From positions 212,234 through 276,233 of the forward strand of contig NQOV01000005.1 in the NCBI GenBank assembly GCA_002632265.1: a DNA stretch of 64,000 nt. The letters are read 5' to 3'. This document shows positions 4,847-29,844 of this stretch, one piece after another. The position numbers and the translations under genes were made by a program. The stretch is from Rhodospirillaceae bacterium MC!. Its GTDB lineage: Bacteria > Pseudomonadota > Alphaproteobacteria > MC1. The first letter of the stretch is position 1. Each line of letters begins with the position of its first letter. The notes beneath the pieces are model-generated. The model did not search any database and was not told the origin of the DNA. It saw only the letters and a list, made by a program, of their open reading frames with translations.

Positions 4847-7336
4847 TTATGTAATCTTAAGATTCGCTTTATTACTACGAGAGCCGAGCAACTTCATTAT
4901 GATGATCTCAAGTATCAGAATTCCCCATAATATAACTAACTGGGTTATTAATCTTGTGGTTGAGATACTGCTCAAATGCGTCAAACAAAAGAATGTTCCT
5001 GATACAACATACGCCAAGGTAAAGGACCACAGACCACTAAATAAAGCAATTTTCATCCCTCCCTCTTTCTTAGCCATGGAAATAGTCGCAAAACATGGGA
5101 AGTATGCCAAGATGAACAGTAAGAATCCTAAAGTTAAAGATGTATCTTCAAATCTTACAGCGTTATTTTTGATGATCTTGATATCATCATTATCGGCGGT
5201 AATGCTATAATCAAAGGTAGCTTGAAGACCGTCAATGAATATCCCTTTAGTTTCTACTAATTCGTGCTTAATGGTTGTCAATAATCCCATGGTGTTTTGT
5301 GATTCTCGTACCGTTGCATCATCTTTCACATTAAAGGCGATGAGTACTCCAGCCACAAGAACAAGAAGTATAATAACCCCCTTTAAACGACGCTTAAACC
5401 TTTTCATTCCACGTCTGGCCATTGCTTGACTGCCTGAAATCTTCTTCTTAATAAACATCAGCACAAACACCGCCAAGGCTATCACAACAATATATAAAGC
5501 AAAAACACTAATATTCACATTATTCTCTTGAGAAGTAGGCTCAACATTATTACTATCTGGATTGGTAGAACTATTATCAGCATTTGCAGAATCGCTATTC
5601 GCAGAATCGCTATTCGCAGAATCGTCGCCTTGTCCGTCCGATTGTGAGTAAATAGATGTCATAGTCCCCACCACAACTTCTTTAGCCACTGCTCCAGTGA
5701 TCAAGCCAACAGTAGCTTGCCAATCCTTATCGGTAAAGCCAATGGGATAAAGTAATACGGTGGCTTTTTTACTGATATCGGCTAAAATAGAGTCTTTCAT
5801 ATCCACATTTACATCGCCTTTCATACTCACAGCACCCAAAATACCAACAGACGCCACAAGAATCAAGAACATTCCGCCTAAACGTTGTAAAAATGCTTTG
5901 ATGTTATTCCCTGTAATCCTAAGGATCATATTCCATTGTGGACGCAAGTAATTGGGCATACGAACAATCAAAGGCGACTTTTTAGCTTGTAAAATGGTAC
6001 GTTTAACCACAACACCAGTAAATATCGCCAATAGAATACCTACTATATACAAAGAAAAGACCACTATCGCACTATATTGCGGTATAAAAGCCGCACAAAA
6101 CAAAGCATATACTGGCAATCTAGCCGAACACGACATAAAAGGCGACATTAAAATAGTAGCTTGTCTTTCCGCATGAGTCGGTAAAGTTCTCGCTCCTGCA
6201 ATCGTGGCGATATTACAACCAAAACCCACAACCAACGGCAAGAACATACTTCCGCTTAAACCTATCATATTCAAGAATCTATCCACAACGATGGACGCTC
6301 GGACCATATATCCCGAGGCCTCTAAGATCGACATCAATAAATACACCAAACCGACAACAGGAATAAAGCCAAACAAGGCCGCCAACGCTGTCCCGATACC
6401 GTCAACCACAATGGTAATTATCACATCAGGAGCATGGACCTCATGTAAAAGCCATGCGGGAACATCGACAAAAGGAATATTTGCCAACTGCCCTAATCCT
6501 GGAACTAAGATCCCATTCCCTATGGTCAACGCCACAAAGAAAACTAGATACATCATCACAAGAAAAATCGGCAAACCTAAATATTTATGCAAAACGATAC
6601 GATCTATTTTATCTTGTAAAACCGTGGTTTCCGTTTTTGCTTTCACTAGCGATTTGTTAGCATATTCTGCCGATAAATGATAAATAAAATCGTTGATCTT
6701 AATAATCTCTTTCAAGCTCGGAGTTTTTAATTGAGCTTTATCATCAAAGATAACATCTTGCAAATCCCCAAGATCTATAGGATTAGGCTTTAATTTATCA
6801 CGAGATACCGCAAATAATGCTTGCTCTATGGCTTCCTTTAACAAACGTAGCGAACTCTTATTCACCGCCGATGTGGAAATTACAGGCACATTTAAGATTT
6901 TGCTCAACTCATCCACACGGATATTGATCCCACGCACATGGGCGATATCTGACATATTACAAACTACGATATAAGGTATCTGCATAATCGATAATTGGAT
7001 ACACTGATACAAACCTTGTTCTAGATTAGTGGAATCTAAAACACTAATGGCAAGATCCGCTTGTTTTGTTTCTAGATATTGCTTAACCACTAATTCATCT
7101 GGCGAATTACCGTCCGATGAAAGTATGGAACTACACCCTGGTAGATCGATAATCTTCCCTGCGGTTTTTTCTTCCCTATTTAAAGAGAAAACCCCTTCGA
7201 CCTTTTCCACTGTAACCCCTGCCCAATTGGCGGTTTTATAGTTGGAATGTGTCAGTTGATTAAAAATAGTTGTTTTCCCACTGTTAGGCGTACCTACCAG
7301 TGCGACTACTGGCAGTTCATTTACATATTTATCCAT
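4847..7336 (-). CDS. feoB: Ferrous iron transport GTPase-permease FeoB
   Basis: This inner-membrane Fe(II) importer has an N-terminal G-protein domain (829 aa in total). Motifs visible are GTPNSGKT (15-22, G1), DLPG (64-67, G3) and NMSD (127-130, G4), followed by the gated permease segments with GxGCN (VGFGCNIATIAG). The C-terminal third carries a hydrophilic insert rich in repeated SANSD units (about residues 555-600) encoded by a 15-bp tandem repeat. feoA lies upstream on the same strand, as in most feo operons, but the two are separated by 147 bp containing a hairpin repeat. The likely trigger is low oxygen and low iron, though no clear Fur or FNR site was found nearby. Confidence 0.96.
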   Translation of the reverse strand: MDKYVNELPVVALVGTPNSGKTTIFNQLTHSNYKTANWAGVTVEKVEGVFSLNREEKTAGKIIDLPGCSSILSSDGNSPDELVVKQYLETKQADLAISVLDSTNLEQGLYQCIQLSIMQIPYIVVCNMSDIAHVRGINIRVDELSKILNVPVISTSAVNKSSLRLLKEAIEQALFAVSRDKLKPNPIDLGDLQDVIFDDKAQLKTPSLKEIIKINDFIYHLSAEYANKSLVKAKTETTVLQDKIDRIVLHKYLGLPIFLVMMYLVFFVALTIGNGILVPGLGQLANIPFVDVPAWLLHEVHAPDVIITIVVDGIGTALAALFGFIPVVGLVYLLMSILEASGYMVRASIVVDRFLNMIGLSGSMFLPLVVGFGCNIATIAGARTLPTHAERQATILMSPFMSCSARLPVYALFCAAFIPQYSAIVVFSLYIVGILLAIFTGVVVKRTILQAKKSPLIVRMPNYLRPQWNMILRITGNNIKAFLQRLGGMFLILVASVGILGAVSMKGDVNVDMKDSILADISKKATVLLYPIGFTDKDWQATVGLITGAVAKEVVVGTMTSIYSQSDGQGDDSANSDSANSDSANADNSSTNPDSNNVEPTSQENNVNISVFALYIVVIALAVFVLMFIKKKISGSQAMARRGMKRFKRRLKGVIILLVLVAGVLIAFNVKDDATVRESQNTMGLLTTIKHELVETKGIFIDGLQATFDYSITADNDDIKIIKNNAVRFEDTSLTLGFLLFILAYFPCFATISMAKKEGGMKIALFSGLWSFTLAYVVSGTFFCLTHLSSISTTRLITQLVILWGILILEIIIMKLLGSRSNKANLKIT
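5575..5630. repeat. 15-bp tandem repeat inside feoB
   Basis: The unit GCAGAATCGCTATTC is repeated about three times in frame, encoding SANSD-type peptide repeats (SANSDSANSDSANAD in the product). A 15-bp unit keeps the frame, so copy-number change would alter only loop length. Confidence 0.8.
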
Positions 7337-7380
7337 AATTTTTACATCCTTCCTTCATTATATGTAATGTCATAAAGTAT

Positions 7381-7475
7381 GGGAAAAAGTGATTAGTCAG
7401 AATTCTTAGGGCATGCGTGGCGTATCACACCACTATCATACATGACTTAAGAACACTAAATGAGTACCTTTTCAC
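7381..7475 (-). repeat. Stop-proximal hairpin repeat, copy in the feoA-feoB gap
   Basis: The left end GGGAAAAAGTGATTAGTC and right end AATGAGTACCTTTTCAC are imperfect inverted repeats, with an inner pair AATTCTTAGG / CTTAAGAAC. The element starts 8 bp after the feoA stop codon (minus strand) and fills most of the feoA-feoB gap. Related copies lie at 17194-17290, 50216-50312 and 63124-63202, all in the same orientation to the preceding gene. Confidence 0.8.
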
Positions 7476-7483
7476 ATATTTTT

Positions 7484-7726
7484 TTATTTAATTTTCTTGA
7501 TGATAATACAAGAGACTTCTTTTTTACGTAAAGCGAAATAAGAATCTCTTAAGCGTACCTTCATAGGATCGCCCATGGGAGCAGTATCTATCAACTGTAC
7601 CACGCCACCAGCAACAAAGCCAAGGTTTGTAAGCTTGCTTATATATGGTATATTCTCATTATCTAAGATGAATTCTTGAATTTCACCTTTTTCGCCAATT
7701 GCAAGATCCGATAAGGTGTCTGTCAT
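7484..7726 (-). CDS. feoA: FeoA-family ferrous iron transport protein
   Basis: An 80-aa SH3-like protein that assists or regulates FeoB. Family features seen are the opening SDLAIGEKGEIQEF, the central ISKLTNLGFVAGGVVQLIDTAPMGDPMKVRLRD and the C-terminal YFALRKKEVSCIIIKK, which match the usual FeoA length and layout. A strong ribosome binding site (GGAGGAAAAAACAA) precedes the ATG. It lies upstream of feoB on the same strand with an intervening hairpin repeat, so it is probably the first gene of a feoAB transcript. Confidence 0.93.
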   Translation of the reverse strand: MTDTLSDLAIGEKGEIQEFILDNENIPYISKLTNLGFVAGGVVQLIDTAPMGDPMKVRLRDSYFALRKKEVSCIIIKKIK

Positions 7727-8250
7727 TTGTTTTTTCCTCCAAATTATATTTTGGTTAAGTTAATGTCCTAATATAAATGGGTATTAGTAATCTTTATTTC
7801 ATTATTTTTTCATTGAAATAGAAAGATAACATCATTTACATTTTATACACTATGTATCCGTAGTTTTTTATCTCATAATACTATTATAGTACAAAGAAAT
7901 CTCAATGCAAGTACTAATTTAAAAAAAATTAAAAAAAATTGAAATACTTAACATAACTCAAGAAATATCCGTAAAATTCTTAATAAAATACCAAGACAAA
8001 GAAAATAATAAGCTATTTATACATATAATTTTTCTTATTCTCGCACAAGATTCCAGAATAGCACAAAATAAATTATTATTTTTCTTCTACCCCACATGAC
8101 AGATTCTAAATAGCAAGACAATTTATATATACAGCTGATTATATAATTTTTATCTTGACATTACTTTAATAACATGATGAAATACAATAAACTACAATAT
8201 TCTAAGAGACACTAAGAGATATTAAAAGACACAAAAGCAAAGGCATAACA
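7727..8250. other. Divergent intergenic region, feoA / DUF4910 gene
   Basis: About 520 bp of strongly AT-rich sequence without a gene. Toward the plus-strand gene there is a TTGACA at 8155-8160 with TGAAAT 17 bp later (weak -10), and an AAAGG ribosome binding site before the ATG at 8251. Near the plus-strand start, short AAGAGACAC/AAAAGACAC repeats occur at about 8202-8235. I see no convincing Fur or FNR palindrome. Confidence 0.5.
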
Positions 8251-9558
8251 ATGGAAATCACAGGCGATTTAATATATAAATGGGCAGAAGATATTTTCCC
8301 TTATAACAGAAGTCTTACAGGGAATGGGGTTTTGGAGACTCTGAATTATATTAAAAACATTTGCCCTAATATGGAAATAAAGACATTCCAAACAGGCGAG
8401 CAGGTTTTCGATTGGACTATCCCTAAAGAGTGGAATGTGAAAGATGCCTTTATCGCCGATGAAAATGACAATAAAATCATAGATTTCAAAGAAAACAACT
8501 TACATCTTCTTGGATACTCGACTCCCATTGATTGCCACATGACATTTACCGAGCTAAATAAACATTTATATTCTCTAGAAGATACACCGCAGGCCATACC
8601 TTATATAACTTCATACTATAAGGAAAGATGGGGTTTTTGCTTAAGCCACAATCAACGCACGGAGCTTATAAAGGATTCCATAAAAGATCCCCATAAGCTT
8701 TACAAAGTAAAAATAGATTCCACCTTAAGCGACGGTAAGTTGCATTATGGCGAGATCATTATACCAGGTAAAACAGACAAGGAAATCTTTCTCTCAACCT
8801 ATCATTGTCATCCGTCCATGGGGAACAATGAAGTTTCTGGTCTTGTTGTTACTACTGCTCTTGCGTCGTGGATCAACGGCATGAAAGATAACACAAATGA
8901 ATTTACCTATAGAATCATATTTATACCTGAAACTATCGGATCAATTGCTTATTTAAGCAGAAATCTTTCCAGCATGAAAAAAAATATTGTCGCAGGATAT
9001 GTATTATCATGCGTAGGCGATGAGCGAACATATTCCCATGTAAAATCTCGCTTAGGCGATAAGCTATCGGATGAATTGCTATCATACGTATTAGCCACCA
9101 AAGATCCTGCCTACAAAGAATATAGCTTTTTAGAACGTGGCAGTGATGAACGTCAATATTGTTCTCCTGGAGTTGATCTCCCTGTTTCGACCTTTTGCCG
9201 TTCGAAGTTTGGCGAATATCCTGAATATCATACGTCTTTAGATGATCTAAATGTCATCAGCCCACAGGGTTTATACGGATCATTTGCAGTTATACAAGAT
9301 ATAATCCACATTCTAGAACACAATAAAACCTATCAAACTACAATTCTATGCGAACCCCAGCTCGGTAAAAGAGGACTATATCCAACAATCTCAACCAAAG
9401 ATACCAAATCCATAACCGAAAACATGACCAACTTGATCCAATATTCCGACGGCAATCACTCATTACTAGATATTGCCAAACTTACCAACGTTGATTTTAA
9501 AATCTTCGTAGATCTTGCTAAAACCCTACTGGAACATCATATTATAAAACTAGTCTAA
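8251..9558 (+). CDS. DUF4910/DUF2172 aminopeptidase-like protein
   Basis: A 435-aa protein with the hallmarks of this M28-like family: the N-terminal FPYNRSLTG and QVFDWTIPKEWNVKDA segments (DUF2172 part), then LSTYHCHPSMGNNEVSG (residues 181-197), where H185, H187 and E194 resemble a metal site, and a C-terminal winged-helix-like tail. The family is known mainly from polysaccharide and surface-glycan gene clusters, where its substrate is not settled. The neighbouring FkbM methyltransferase and acyl carrier protein on the opposite strand fit that context. Function beyond peptidase-like fold is inference. Confidence 0.85.
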   Translation: MEITGDLIYKWAEDIFPYNRSLTGNGVLETLNYIKNICPNMEIKTFQTGEQVFDWTIPKEWNVKDAFIADENDNKIIDFKENNLHLLGYSTPIDCHMTFTELNKHLYSLEDTPQAIPYITSYYKERWGFCLSHNQRTELIKDSIKDPHKLYKVKIDSTLSDGKLHYGEIIIPGKTDKEIFLSTYHCHPSMGNNEVSGLVVTTALASWINGMKDNTNEFTYRIIFIPETIGSIAYLSRNLSSMKKNIVAGYVLSCVGDERTYSHVKSRLGDKLSDELLSYVLATKDPAYKEYSFLERGSDERQYCSPGVDLPVSTFCRSKFGEYPEYHTSLDDLNVISPQGLYGSFAVIQDIIHILEHNKTYQTTILCEPQLGKRGLYPTISTKDTKSITENMTNLIQYSDGNHSLLDIAKLTNVDFKIFVDLAKTLLEHHIIKLV

Positions 9559-22390: not shown

Positions 22391-23248
22391 TTAATGTTTT
22401 TCTAGAGAGAGTTTGTGCATTTCTTTTACGATTCGGTTGGAAAATATTTGGGCGATTTGGATGTCTTTTTTGCTCATATGTTTGAATGCACCTTGTAAAA
22501 TGGCGGTGGCTTTCTTTTTTTCCCCGAGATCGTATAAAACGGCGGCCCAAGCTGACGCACGTTTGTAATCAATGGGTGTATACTTGCCTTGGTAATAATT
22601 TATGGCTAAGAAGTATATGGCTTCTTGATTGAATAATAAAGCACTTCGAGTAAAATATTCGATGCCGTATTTTACGTTATTTTCTAGGGTTTTATCTTTA
22701 AAATATAATTCTCCTAGAATTTGTAAGGCGGTGGGGTTTTGAGCTAGGGATTTTACACTTAATAGCTTGATAGCTTGAGCATTATCTTTCTTATCTATGC
22801 TGATAATCGCAAGCCCTATATTGGCAGTAGGATCGTGTTTTTTACTGGCACGATGTAAAAAAATCATAGCCTGTTTCATATTCTTAGCCACGCCCTTACC
22901 CTGTAAATAATACAAAGCAACCAGAGATTCCGCTTGAGTATAACCCAACTTAGCCGAGCGTAAAATTAAAGGATAGGATTTCTTATAATCAGGTTCATAA
23001 AGCCGACCAAGAGCATATAAAGCCTTGGGATTTTTATTGTTGGCTATTTTCTTAAGGTTAATAATTTCCAATTGCTTTTTAGTATATTTATTTTTTGATG
23101 TTTTCTGTGATGTTTTGTGATTAATATTATTACCTGCAAAACTTACGCTAGTAAAGACGCATAAAAAACACAAGACATATATCAAACCATATATAAAGCC
23201 ATATATAAATCTGTGAGTAATATTTTTTGTTATGGTGATAAAAATCAT
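22391..23248 (-). CDS. Exported Sel1-repeat protein
   Basis: A 285-aa protein with an N-terminal hydrophobic segment (about residues 13-38, ending SVSFAGNN) consistent with a signal peptide. The rest is built of Sel1/TPR-like helical pairs, for example ALYALGRLYEPDYKKSYPLI, AESLVALYYLQGKGVAKNMKQA and AIYFLAINYYQGKYTPIDYKRA. Such proteins usually mediate protein contacts in the envelope. It is monocistronic and convergent with cmk. The partner is unknown. A second Sel1 protein, a lipoprotein, lies at 29272-29844. Confidence 0.8.
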   Translation of the reverse strand: MIFITITKNITHRFIYGFIYGLIYVLCFLCVFTSVSFAGNNINHKTSQKTSKNKYTKKQLEIINLKKIANNKNPKALYALGRLYEPDYKKSYPLILRSAKLGYTQAESLVALYYLQGKGVAKNMKQAMIFLHRASKKHDPTANIGLAIISIDKKDNAQAIKLLSVKSLAQNPTALQILGELYFKDKTLENNVKYGIEYFTRSALLFNQEAIYFLAINYYQGKYTPIDYKRASAWAAVLYDLGEKKKATAILQGAFKHMSKKDIQIAQIFSNRIVKEMHKLSLEKH

Positions 23249-23336
23249 GGGCGTATCCTGTATCCTGACAGTAAAAAGAAAAACATGGCTAAAATATAAA
23301 TTTTAACCATGCTTTATGACTTTGAAGATCTAAGTT

Positions 23337-24710
23337 TTAAGATAATGTAAATAAGATCTCTTCTGATGCTGTAACTTGTTCGTTATACTTAACACCTTTC
23401 ATGGTCAGATTATTTGATTTAGAAATAACCACAGGTATAACAGTATCAACATCTGTATCTTGTAGTTTTTTCAATTCAAACTTCAATAAGGGATCGCCCT
23501 TTTTAACAATTTGTTGATTATTAACTAAAACATCAAAATACTCACTATTGGAATGAATAGTATTAAGACCCACATGTAGCAGTACAGTTATACCGCACGG
23601 AGATTTCATATATAAAGCATGTTTCATACTTTTAGAAAGTGATATCTCGCCATCAAATGGAGCATATAAAGTATCGCCCGTGGGTTGAATGGCCACCCCT
23701 GATCCTAAAACATGCTTACTAAACACTTCATCATTTACCGAGCTTAGCCTTACAATAGTACCAGTAATAGGAGCATAAATTGAACAAGCTTCCTTGCATT
23801 CTTTAGTATATACTCGCTCTAGTACGCCAATGCCGATATTCTGATTATCAAAAAGACTATCATCATCATGATCTATAAGTGTTTTTTGAATATCTTCATC
23901 GTTGAGATTATTAAGGATCTTTGCGAATAAATCAGTACACTGACCAAGATATAAAGTATAATGCCTTTCATCAGAAGTGATATTTACAGGATTAAGATCC
24001 CTTAATTCTTCTTCATTCACAAGATCCATGTTGTTGATTGAGAAACTAATATGGGTGATATCGCCAATCATTCTGCCGATGTTTGAACGTCCACCTAAGG
24101 CATTCATATATTGGCAAGCTGTACGGAAGAAATCCTTTACAATTGCGGTTTCAATGGGCTTAGTAATATATTGAGCCACTTCGCCCATATTAATACGGAT
24201 TCTATTATGATCAAAGATAATAGTGTCCTTAGCTCCGTATCCTTGTAGGATACCCTCATGTAAAAGAGTAACATCTTCGATACTAACAAAAATATTCTCA
24301 TCTAGAATGTAGAAAGAATATAAATTACGCCAACCACCAAGGGCTTTTAAAATATCGCCCCCTGATTTTGATAGTTTATACGCCTTATCAAAATTCGGCA
24401 ACTGGTTAGATTGCTCCACAAGATGAGAAACATCCATATTAAATTCGATATACAAAGATTCTTTATCGTGGCGTTCAATGCTTACAAGCTTTAAGCGTTT
24501 AAGATAATAATCATCAATTTTTGTATCTTTCTTACAAGAAACAATTATGGTGTTTGGTTTATCGCTTTTTAGAGCGAGAATATTTGTTTGCGAGCCTAGC
24601 CCTTTAGTAAAATCACGTAAAAAGGAGTACTCATGGCTATTATCATAAAAATCCTTTTTATTGGTTTCCAAGACATCCAAGCCATTGCTAATAATATTAT
24701 ATAGAGACAT
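23337..24710 (-). CDS. PTS-like protein: three Cys-less EIIB-like domains fused to EIIA-Glc
   Basis: A 457-aa soluble protein with no membrane segments, so no EIIC. The C-terminal domain (about 309-457) is a clear EIIA of the glucose family: IYAPITGTIV, GSGVAIQPTGDTLYAPFDGEI, and both conserved histidines, H364 (KHAL) and the phospho-acceptor H379 (LLHVGL). Upstream are three EIIB-like units opening with the family's LG(G)xxN(I/L) signature: about 29-100, 112-185 and 194-268. Aligned without gaps to the E. coli EIIB-Glc motif (ALGG...DACITRL) from memory, the phosphorylated Cys is Asp50, Leu136 and Asp217. The protein should accept phosphate from HPr but cannot pass it on in the normal way, which suggests a sensor or regulatory role. 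No other PTS gene is nearby. Confidence 0.82.
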   Translation of the reverse strand: MSLYNIISNGLDVLETNKKDFYDNSHEYSFLRDFTKGLGSQTNILALKSDKPNTIIVSCKKDTKIDDYYLKRLKLVSIERHDKESLYIEFNMDVSHLVEQSNQLPNFDKAYKLSKSGGDILKALGGWRNLYSFYILDENIFVSIEDVTLLHEGILQGYGAKDTIIFDHNRIRINMGEVAQYITKPIETAIVKDFFRTACQYMNALGGRSNIGRMIGDITHISFSINNMDLVNEEELRDLNPVNITSDERHYTLYLGQCTDLFAKILNNLNDEDIQKTLIDHDDDSLFDNQNIGIGVLERVYTKECKEACSIYAPITGTIVRLSSVNDEVFSKHVLGSGVAIQPTGDTLYAPFDGEISLSKSMKHALYMKSPCGITVLLHVGLNTIHSNSEYFDVLVNNQQIVKKGDPLLKFELKKLQDTDVDTVIPVVISKSNNLTMKGVKYNEQVTASEEILFTLS

Positions 24711-24820
24711 AAATACAATCCTAACATTTCTATAGTTAATTCGATTCGTTTATTATTATTATTAACCTTATACTAACATAATTAAAAGCAAAATACAACA
24801 ATATAGTAAATTTATCTCAT

Positions 24821-24856
24821 AAAAAATAGATCTTAGTTTTATAAGATCTATTTTAT
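24821..24856 (-). terminator. Terminator downstream of dmsC
   Basis: Stem AAAATAGATCTTA / TAAGATCTATTTT around a short loop, with a run of T on the minus strand, lies 34 bp after the dmsC stop. Confidence 0.8.
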
Positions 24857-24889
24857 TTACAAAAAAAAGTTATTTTACAATTATTTTTT

Positions 24890-29271: not shown

Positions 29272-29844
29272 TTATGGTGCATGGATAGTATTTCTTAATT
29301 TATCGGCTATGGCTTTTGCTCTTGTGATACTATGGGGCGATAAAGAACGGCTAATACTTTTAAGAAACTCATCGGAATAGCCATTGGATACCGCAATATA
29401 AGCCCACGCATAGGCCATGATCAAGCTTTGCGATACTCCTTGACCTTCAGCATACATCACACCTAAATTATTTTGTGCTGATGGTACGCCTTTCTTGGCA
29501 GCCTTAGACCACCAAAATACGGCTTTTTGTAAATCCATGTCTACGCCTCTACCATTGGCATACATAAAGGCGATGTTCGATTCCGCTTTAAGATTGCCTA
29601 ATCTTGCAGATTTAAGATACCAATATGCAGCCTTATCAAAATTCTTCGCCATTCCCTTACCAGTTTCATACATACGCCCTAGCGTATTTTGGGCGTCGCT
29701 ATTATTTTTTAATGCCAACTTTCTCATACAAGTAGTAGCACTGGGATTTTGCTGACATGAACTAACTAACTTATTGGTAGTTGTACTTTTTGCACATGCC
29801 GTAGTTAATAGTAATAGCACGCACAATAATATAATCTTTCTCAT
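29272..29844 (-). CDS. Sel1-repeat lipoprotein
   Basis: A 190-aa protein starting with a lipoprotein signal peptide: MRKIILLCVLLLLTTAC, with Cys17 as the acylation site. Three Sel1 repeats follow: AQNTLGRMYETGKGMAKNFDKAAYWY, AESNIAFMYANGRGVDMDLQKAVFWW and AQNNLGVMYAEGQGVSQSLIMAYAWA. It is probably anchored to the outer or inner membrane facing the periplasm and acts as a protein-interaction scaffold. It is monocistronic, between dmsA and the GmrSD-like gene. Confidence 0.85.
   Translation of the reverse strand: MRKIILLCVLLLLTTACAKSTTTNKLVSSCQQNPSATTCMRKLALKNNSDAQNTLGRMYETGKGMAKNFDKAAYWYLKSARLGNLKAESNIAFMYANGRGVDMDLQKAVFWWSKAAKKGVPSAQNNLGVMYAEGQGVSQSLIMAYAWAYIAVSNGYSDEFLKSISRSLSPHSITRAKAIADKLRNTIHAP

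Follow-up and report, generated by a model that had tools for sequence, protein, structure and literature searches.

A 457-residue alphaproteobacterial protein with three Cys-less EIIB-like units and an EIIA-Glc domain, a possible reader of PTS phosphorylation state

EIIBs are known as phosphate carriers. The protein of 457 amino acids analysed here contains three that have lost the carrier residue, beside an EIIA that is probably phosphorylatable, and the question is what such a protein could do. Its gene lies in the window, that is, the whole stretch of 64,000 nucleotides that was analysed, and an earlier note on this DNA had seen in it a possible sensor or scaffold for the state of the PTS. 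A sensor or scaffold is also the best inference that we can draw from the sequence. In the reading that we prefer, with a probability of roughly 0.4, the protein would be a non-transporting, stand-alone PTS paralogue or adaptor that senses how far the PTS is phosphorylated, by a mechanism that we infer below. The gene, its parts and its flanking elements are, in window coordinates:

23337..24710, minus strand: whole gene, 457 aa plus stop, a single open reading frame
24630..24710, minus strand: N-terminal extension, aa 1-27, a predicted helix of low confidence
24399..24629, minus strand: EIIB-like unit 1, aa 28-104 (profile 8.1 bits, shuffle maximum 7.0, reached by 0/1000 shuffles; fold; alignments)
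24141..24398, minus strand: EIIB-like unit 2, aa 105-190 (profile 15.8 bits, shuffle maximum 6.0, reached by 0/1000 shuffles; fold; alignment)
23886..24140, minus strand: EIIB-like unit 3, aa 191-275 (profile 30.0 bits, shuffle maximum 7.8, reached by 0/1000 shuffles; sub-cut-off PF00367; alignment)
23790..23885, minus strand: acidic linker, aa 276-307, of low confidence in the structure model
23340..23789, minus strand: EIIA-Glc domain with H364 and H379, aa 308-457 (PF00358; PDB relatives; alignment)
24719..24722, minus strand: Shine-Dalgarno-like AGGA, 8 nt 5' of the ATG (sequence reading)
24815..24870, minus strand: A+T-rich hairpin with a T run, separating the dmsC-like gene from the 457-aa gene (fold z = -4.2)
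23280..23315, minus strand: terminator-like hairpin 3' of the gene (16-pair stem; fold z = -6.4)

The upstream genes form a DMSO-reductase-like operon, dmsABC-like when the translations are read by eye, and the hairpin at 24815..24870 is its probable terminator. Both flanking hairpins carry T runs and, since the 457-aa gene sits between them, it probably has its own transcript, separate from that operon; a shared operon with the upstream genes was judged unlikely because of the hairpin in between. No consensus promoter was seen on reading the sequence upstream of the gene, and the genes next to it do not point clearly to a regulatory partner. Small Sel1-repeat-like proteins, called by Pfam at 22391-23248 (minus strand) and by eye at 29272-29844 (minus strand), bracket the gene together with the DMSO-reductase-like operon.

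Pfam alone recognises an EIIB in unit 3 only (PF00367, E 4.9e-4), at 19.9 bits and thus below the curated cut-off of 27. A profile built exclusively from 27 Cys-bearing EIIBs gives three separate matches in order, at aa 35-97, 118-189 and 197-266, the weakest being unit 1, and neither the linker nor the EIIA domain scores against it. The LGxxxN signature is kept in all three units. AlphaFold predicts for units 1-2 the succession alpha-beta-beta-alpha-beta-beta-alpha with a pLDDT of about 90, real double EIIBs being among the aligned sequences; the element order of EIIB-Glc is also found, at low confidence, in a second model made without EIIB rows over these units, and the high-confidence model was therefore helped by its alignment. 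In a Foldseek search of the PDB, the best six matches to units 1-2 are all either structures of EIIB or models that contain it, with E. coli EIIB at the top (TM 0.88 to 1o2f chain B, target-normalised). The EIIB fold of unit 3 is supported by the profile and by the full-length model. Structure prediction, proposed earlier as the check on these folds, thus agrees with the EIIB assignment, through AlphaFold and Foldseek for units 1-2 and together with the profile for unit 3. The prediction is not confident about how the domains are arranged within the chain (pTM 0.40). A recent internal duplication as the source of the three units was rejected, their pairwise alignments not being clearly above shuffles. 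A match to units 1-2 in G534 was discarded as chance, as the matching protein reads like a diguanylate cyclase.

By alignment, the position of the phosphorylated Cys is taken by L136 in unit 2 and by D217 in unit 3, as the earlier note had it; its third replacement, Asp50 in unit 1, is not secure, since a one-residue insertion makes the placing ambiguous between it and K51. None of the six Cys residues of the protein (59, 199, 258, 305, 309 and 372) falls at a phospho-Cys position. Moreover, all three units are without the arginines found after the Cys in the CITRLR (CxTRxR) motif. Lacking the acceptor Cys, the units are unable to carry phosphate in the manner known for EIIB. The idea that Asp mimics the phosphorylated state finds little support, with Leu in one unit, an ambiguous residue in another and a single secure Asp; it is further weakened by the loss of the Arg residues and by the Cys-less EIIBs found elsewhere, which show no preference for Asp.

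Such EIIBs were met in our survey of the class, in which a second EIIB is common on IIC-type permeases. When 11 second EIIBs of IICBB permeases were read by eye, the Cys was in place in two, one position off in one and lost in eight. EIIB units kept without Cys thus have precedent, about 8/11 of these alphaproteobacterial second EIIBs being Cys-less. A degenerate, Cys-less second EIIB lies at the C-terminal end of Nag/Glc-type permeases at eight loci (L029, L031, L032, L033, L034, L036, L037 and L038), and, judging from the sequences, seems widespread in alphaproteobacterial permeases of this type. No report on duplicated or degenerate EIIBs was found in the library of papers that was searched. 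A locus of Thalassotalea (L089, 3001-3555) holds an IIC permease with two Cys-bearing EIIBs, plus a separate single EIIB of about 125 aa. A Cys-less EIIB is therefore not unique to the 457-aa protein; three of them in an array on an EIIA, with no EIIC, were met in no other protein.

The EIIA domain matches PF00358 at aa 310-434 with an E-value of 3.8e-39 (133.7 bits, cut-off 27.2), and H364 and H379 align with H75 and H90 of E. coli. Among solved structures it is nearest to E. coli IIA-Glc and to a Phosphotransferase system IIA component, and Foldseek places it on E. coli IIA-Glc (1f3g) with a TM of 0.90. Profile, fold and alignments together thus bear out the description of three Cys-less EIIB folds joined to an EIIA that keeps both active histidines. 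Across 41 EIIA homologues, 31 positions are conserved at 80% or more; the domain keeps 22 of them, and G100, G102 and G110 are among the residues lost. With both histidines and these 22 positions retained, the phosphate-accepting half of the protein looks constrained and the relay half does not.

The rim of the EIIA active site has changed in its charges (E43 to K, E80 to K, E86 to T, D94 to N and E97 to H). In the E. coli IIA-IIB complexes, acidic residues of EIIA face Arg residues of EIIB. When the rim is defined after the contacts of E. coli IIA with HPr and with IIB in their complexes, its net charge here is +1, as compared with 0 to -6 in the 41 homologues. Since the docking rim is without its acidic residues, the partners of this EIIA have probably changed, and the loss of both the acidic rim and the EIIB Arg residues suggests a rewired EIIA-EIIB contact, either within the molecule or with another partner. 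Read otherwise, the altered rim could mean weaker docking to HPr.

How far does this architecture extend? It was not found in 41 relatives, nor in the genomes sampled from the class (385) and the phylum (398), so that the profile search proposed earlier for a matching architecture gave no second case. A pattern scan for near relatives in 84,980 species, which detects close relatives only, and a near-relative scan of viral contigs returned no relatives of the protein; in plasmids no match covers 80% of the query, those listed being ordinary permeases or unannotated records, and the defence and phage libraries hold no match. Within the genomes searched, the protein is an orphan. The EIIA domain itself belongs to a type that is, as the earlier note stated, rare in the class (13 of 385 genomes match).

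This isolation fits the view of the protein as a relic, that is, an old fusion of EIIB repeats with an EIIA in which the repeats, after drifting, no longer have a function, the EIIA exchanging phosphate or not. The units are too diverged to resemble one another clearly above shuffles, and the EIIA has lost conserved residues too, such as the three glycines named above. We nevertheless consider a relic, one of the two chief rivals, less likely than the adaptor, as the frame is intact across 457 codons, the fold and the LGxxxN signature persist in three units, both EIIA histidines are kept, and the gene has a ribosome site and is flanked by terminators.

Whether transport calls for the protein can be judged from the PTS genes of the host, a genome of 2.05 Mb that is 95.5% complete and was inventoried by profile searches and in a few sequence stretches. 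The protein has no PF02378 match in a Pfam search, which confirms that it lacks an EIIC. The genome encodes an HPr-EI fusion, and thus the EI and HPr whose presence was to be checked, together with a stand-alone Crr, an IIC-B-A permease, a mannitol EII with HPr and a fructose-type EII. The earlier statement that PTS proteins of this class mostly act in regulation fits poorly here, the sugar PTS being complete in this set. Only two EIICs of PF02378 type are present, each with a B domain of its own on the same chain; the IIC-B-A permease has an intact Cys in its B domain and an A domain of its own, and thus the 457-aa protein is not needed for transport or to complete a permease. The HPr-EI fusion (L022, 6568-9051, plus strand) begins with 160 aa that match no Pfam family. 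In relatives of this fusion an EIIA is often present at that place.

The genome also contains three free tandem double-EIIB genes, at 6202-6720 (minus strand), 7270-7797 (plus strand) and 8052-8579 (minus strand) of a stretch of contig C5 (34000-46686; locus L021), each preceded by what reads as a near-consensus sigma-70 promoter (TTGACA, 16-17 nt, TATAAT). Their products keep both Cys and have no EIIC. No short-frame EIIB proteins like them were seen in the other genomes of the class sample, and apart from these doubles, the permease and the 457-aa protein, no further hidden EIIB-like arrays were found in this genome. They open a less probable account, in which the EIIA would phosphorylate the Cys of the doubles and the Cys-less units would hold these through EIIB-EIIB contacts. 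The existence of free acceptors with intact Cys and without an EIIC of their own speaks for it, as does unit 3, whose best score is to one of them; units 1 and 2 are not most similar to the doubles, however, the genes are unlinked, Crr is the obvious other donor, and the EIIA rim is without the acidic residues that would normally meet the EIIB Arg.

Very improbable is a trap of Mlc type, in which the EIIB-like units would hold a ROK-family repressor and be always on because they are not phosphorylatable: Foldseek matches the unit folds to the EIIB in 3bp8, a Mlc-EIIB complex, and Mlc of E. coli is sequestered by dephospho-EIICB (PMC3901232), but no HTH-bearing ROK repressor was found in this genome at its 95.5% completeness, its two ROK matches looking like sugar kinases whose frame starts leave no DNA-binding N-terminus, and the 457-aa protein has no membrane domain.

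We therefore return to the adaptor that reads the state of the PTS. Its EIIA-Glc domain, with the active histidines kept, would take phosphate from HPr, and the phosphate would stop there, without transfer to the EIIB-like units of the same chain, from which the acceptor Cys is missing. The three units may serve as docking modules for the face of the EIIA, for a partner protein or for both, and the phosphorylation state of the EIIA could switch which contact they make, with a regulatory output. With a somewhat lower probability, the protein would be a PTS signalling protein of a new type, in which the pseudo-EIIBs are pure binding modules that changed together with a phosphorylatable EIIA, and the state of the EIIA decides whether a partner has access to the array. 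Against the adaptor speak the lack of an orthologue in the genomes searched, the altered EIIA rim, the pTM of 0.40 and the uninformative neighbour genes. If it holds, EIIB could be put to a second use purely for binding, much as the kinase fold is in pseudokinases, and the Cys-less second EIIBs of alphaproteobacterial permeases suggest that such reuse extends beyond one protein.

Among known systems, the NagE-type IICBA permeases (PF00367 and PF00358) share with the 457-aa protein an EIIB fold followed by an EIIA-Glc fold in one chain, and the EIIA histidines; the latter differs in having no EIIC, three EIIB units in place of one, neither the Cys nor the CxTR arginines, and an altered EIIA docking rim. 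Alphaproteobacterial IICBB permeases also carry a tandem EIIB unit without Cys, although there the degenerate unit comes after an intact EIIB on a membrane EIIC, and the chain carries no EIIA behind it. The free double EIIBs of the same genome are likewise tandem EIIB-Glc units without EIIC, and are the nearest to unit 3, but they keep both Cys and have no EIIA. E. coli IIA-Glc (Crr), a known state-dependent regulator, has the same fold and histidines, and differs in standing alone and in its acidic docking rim. Finally, regulators of the BglG, LevR, MtlR and AtxA types use PTS-like domains for sensing and not for transport, and are built from other EII types with DNA- or RNA-binding domains. 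The 457-aa protein is like them in concept, whereas Pfam and NCBIfam searches found in it no PRD/BglG/LevR-type or nucleic-acid-binding domains.
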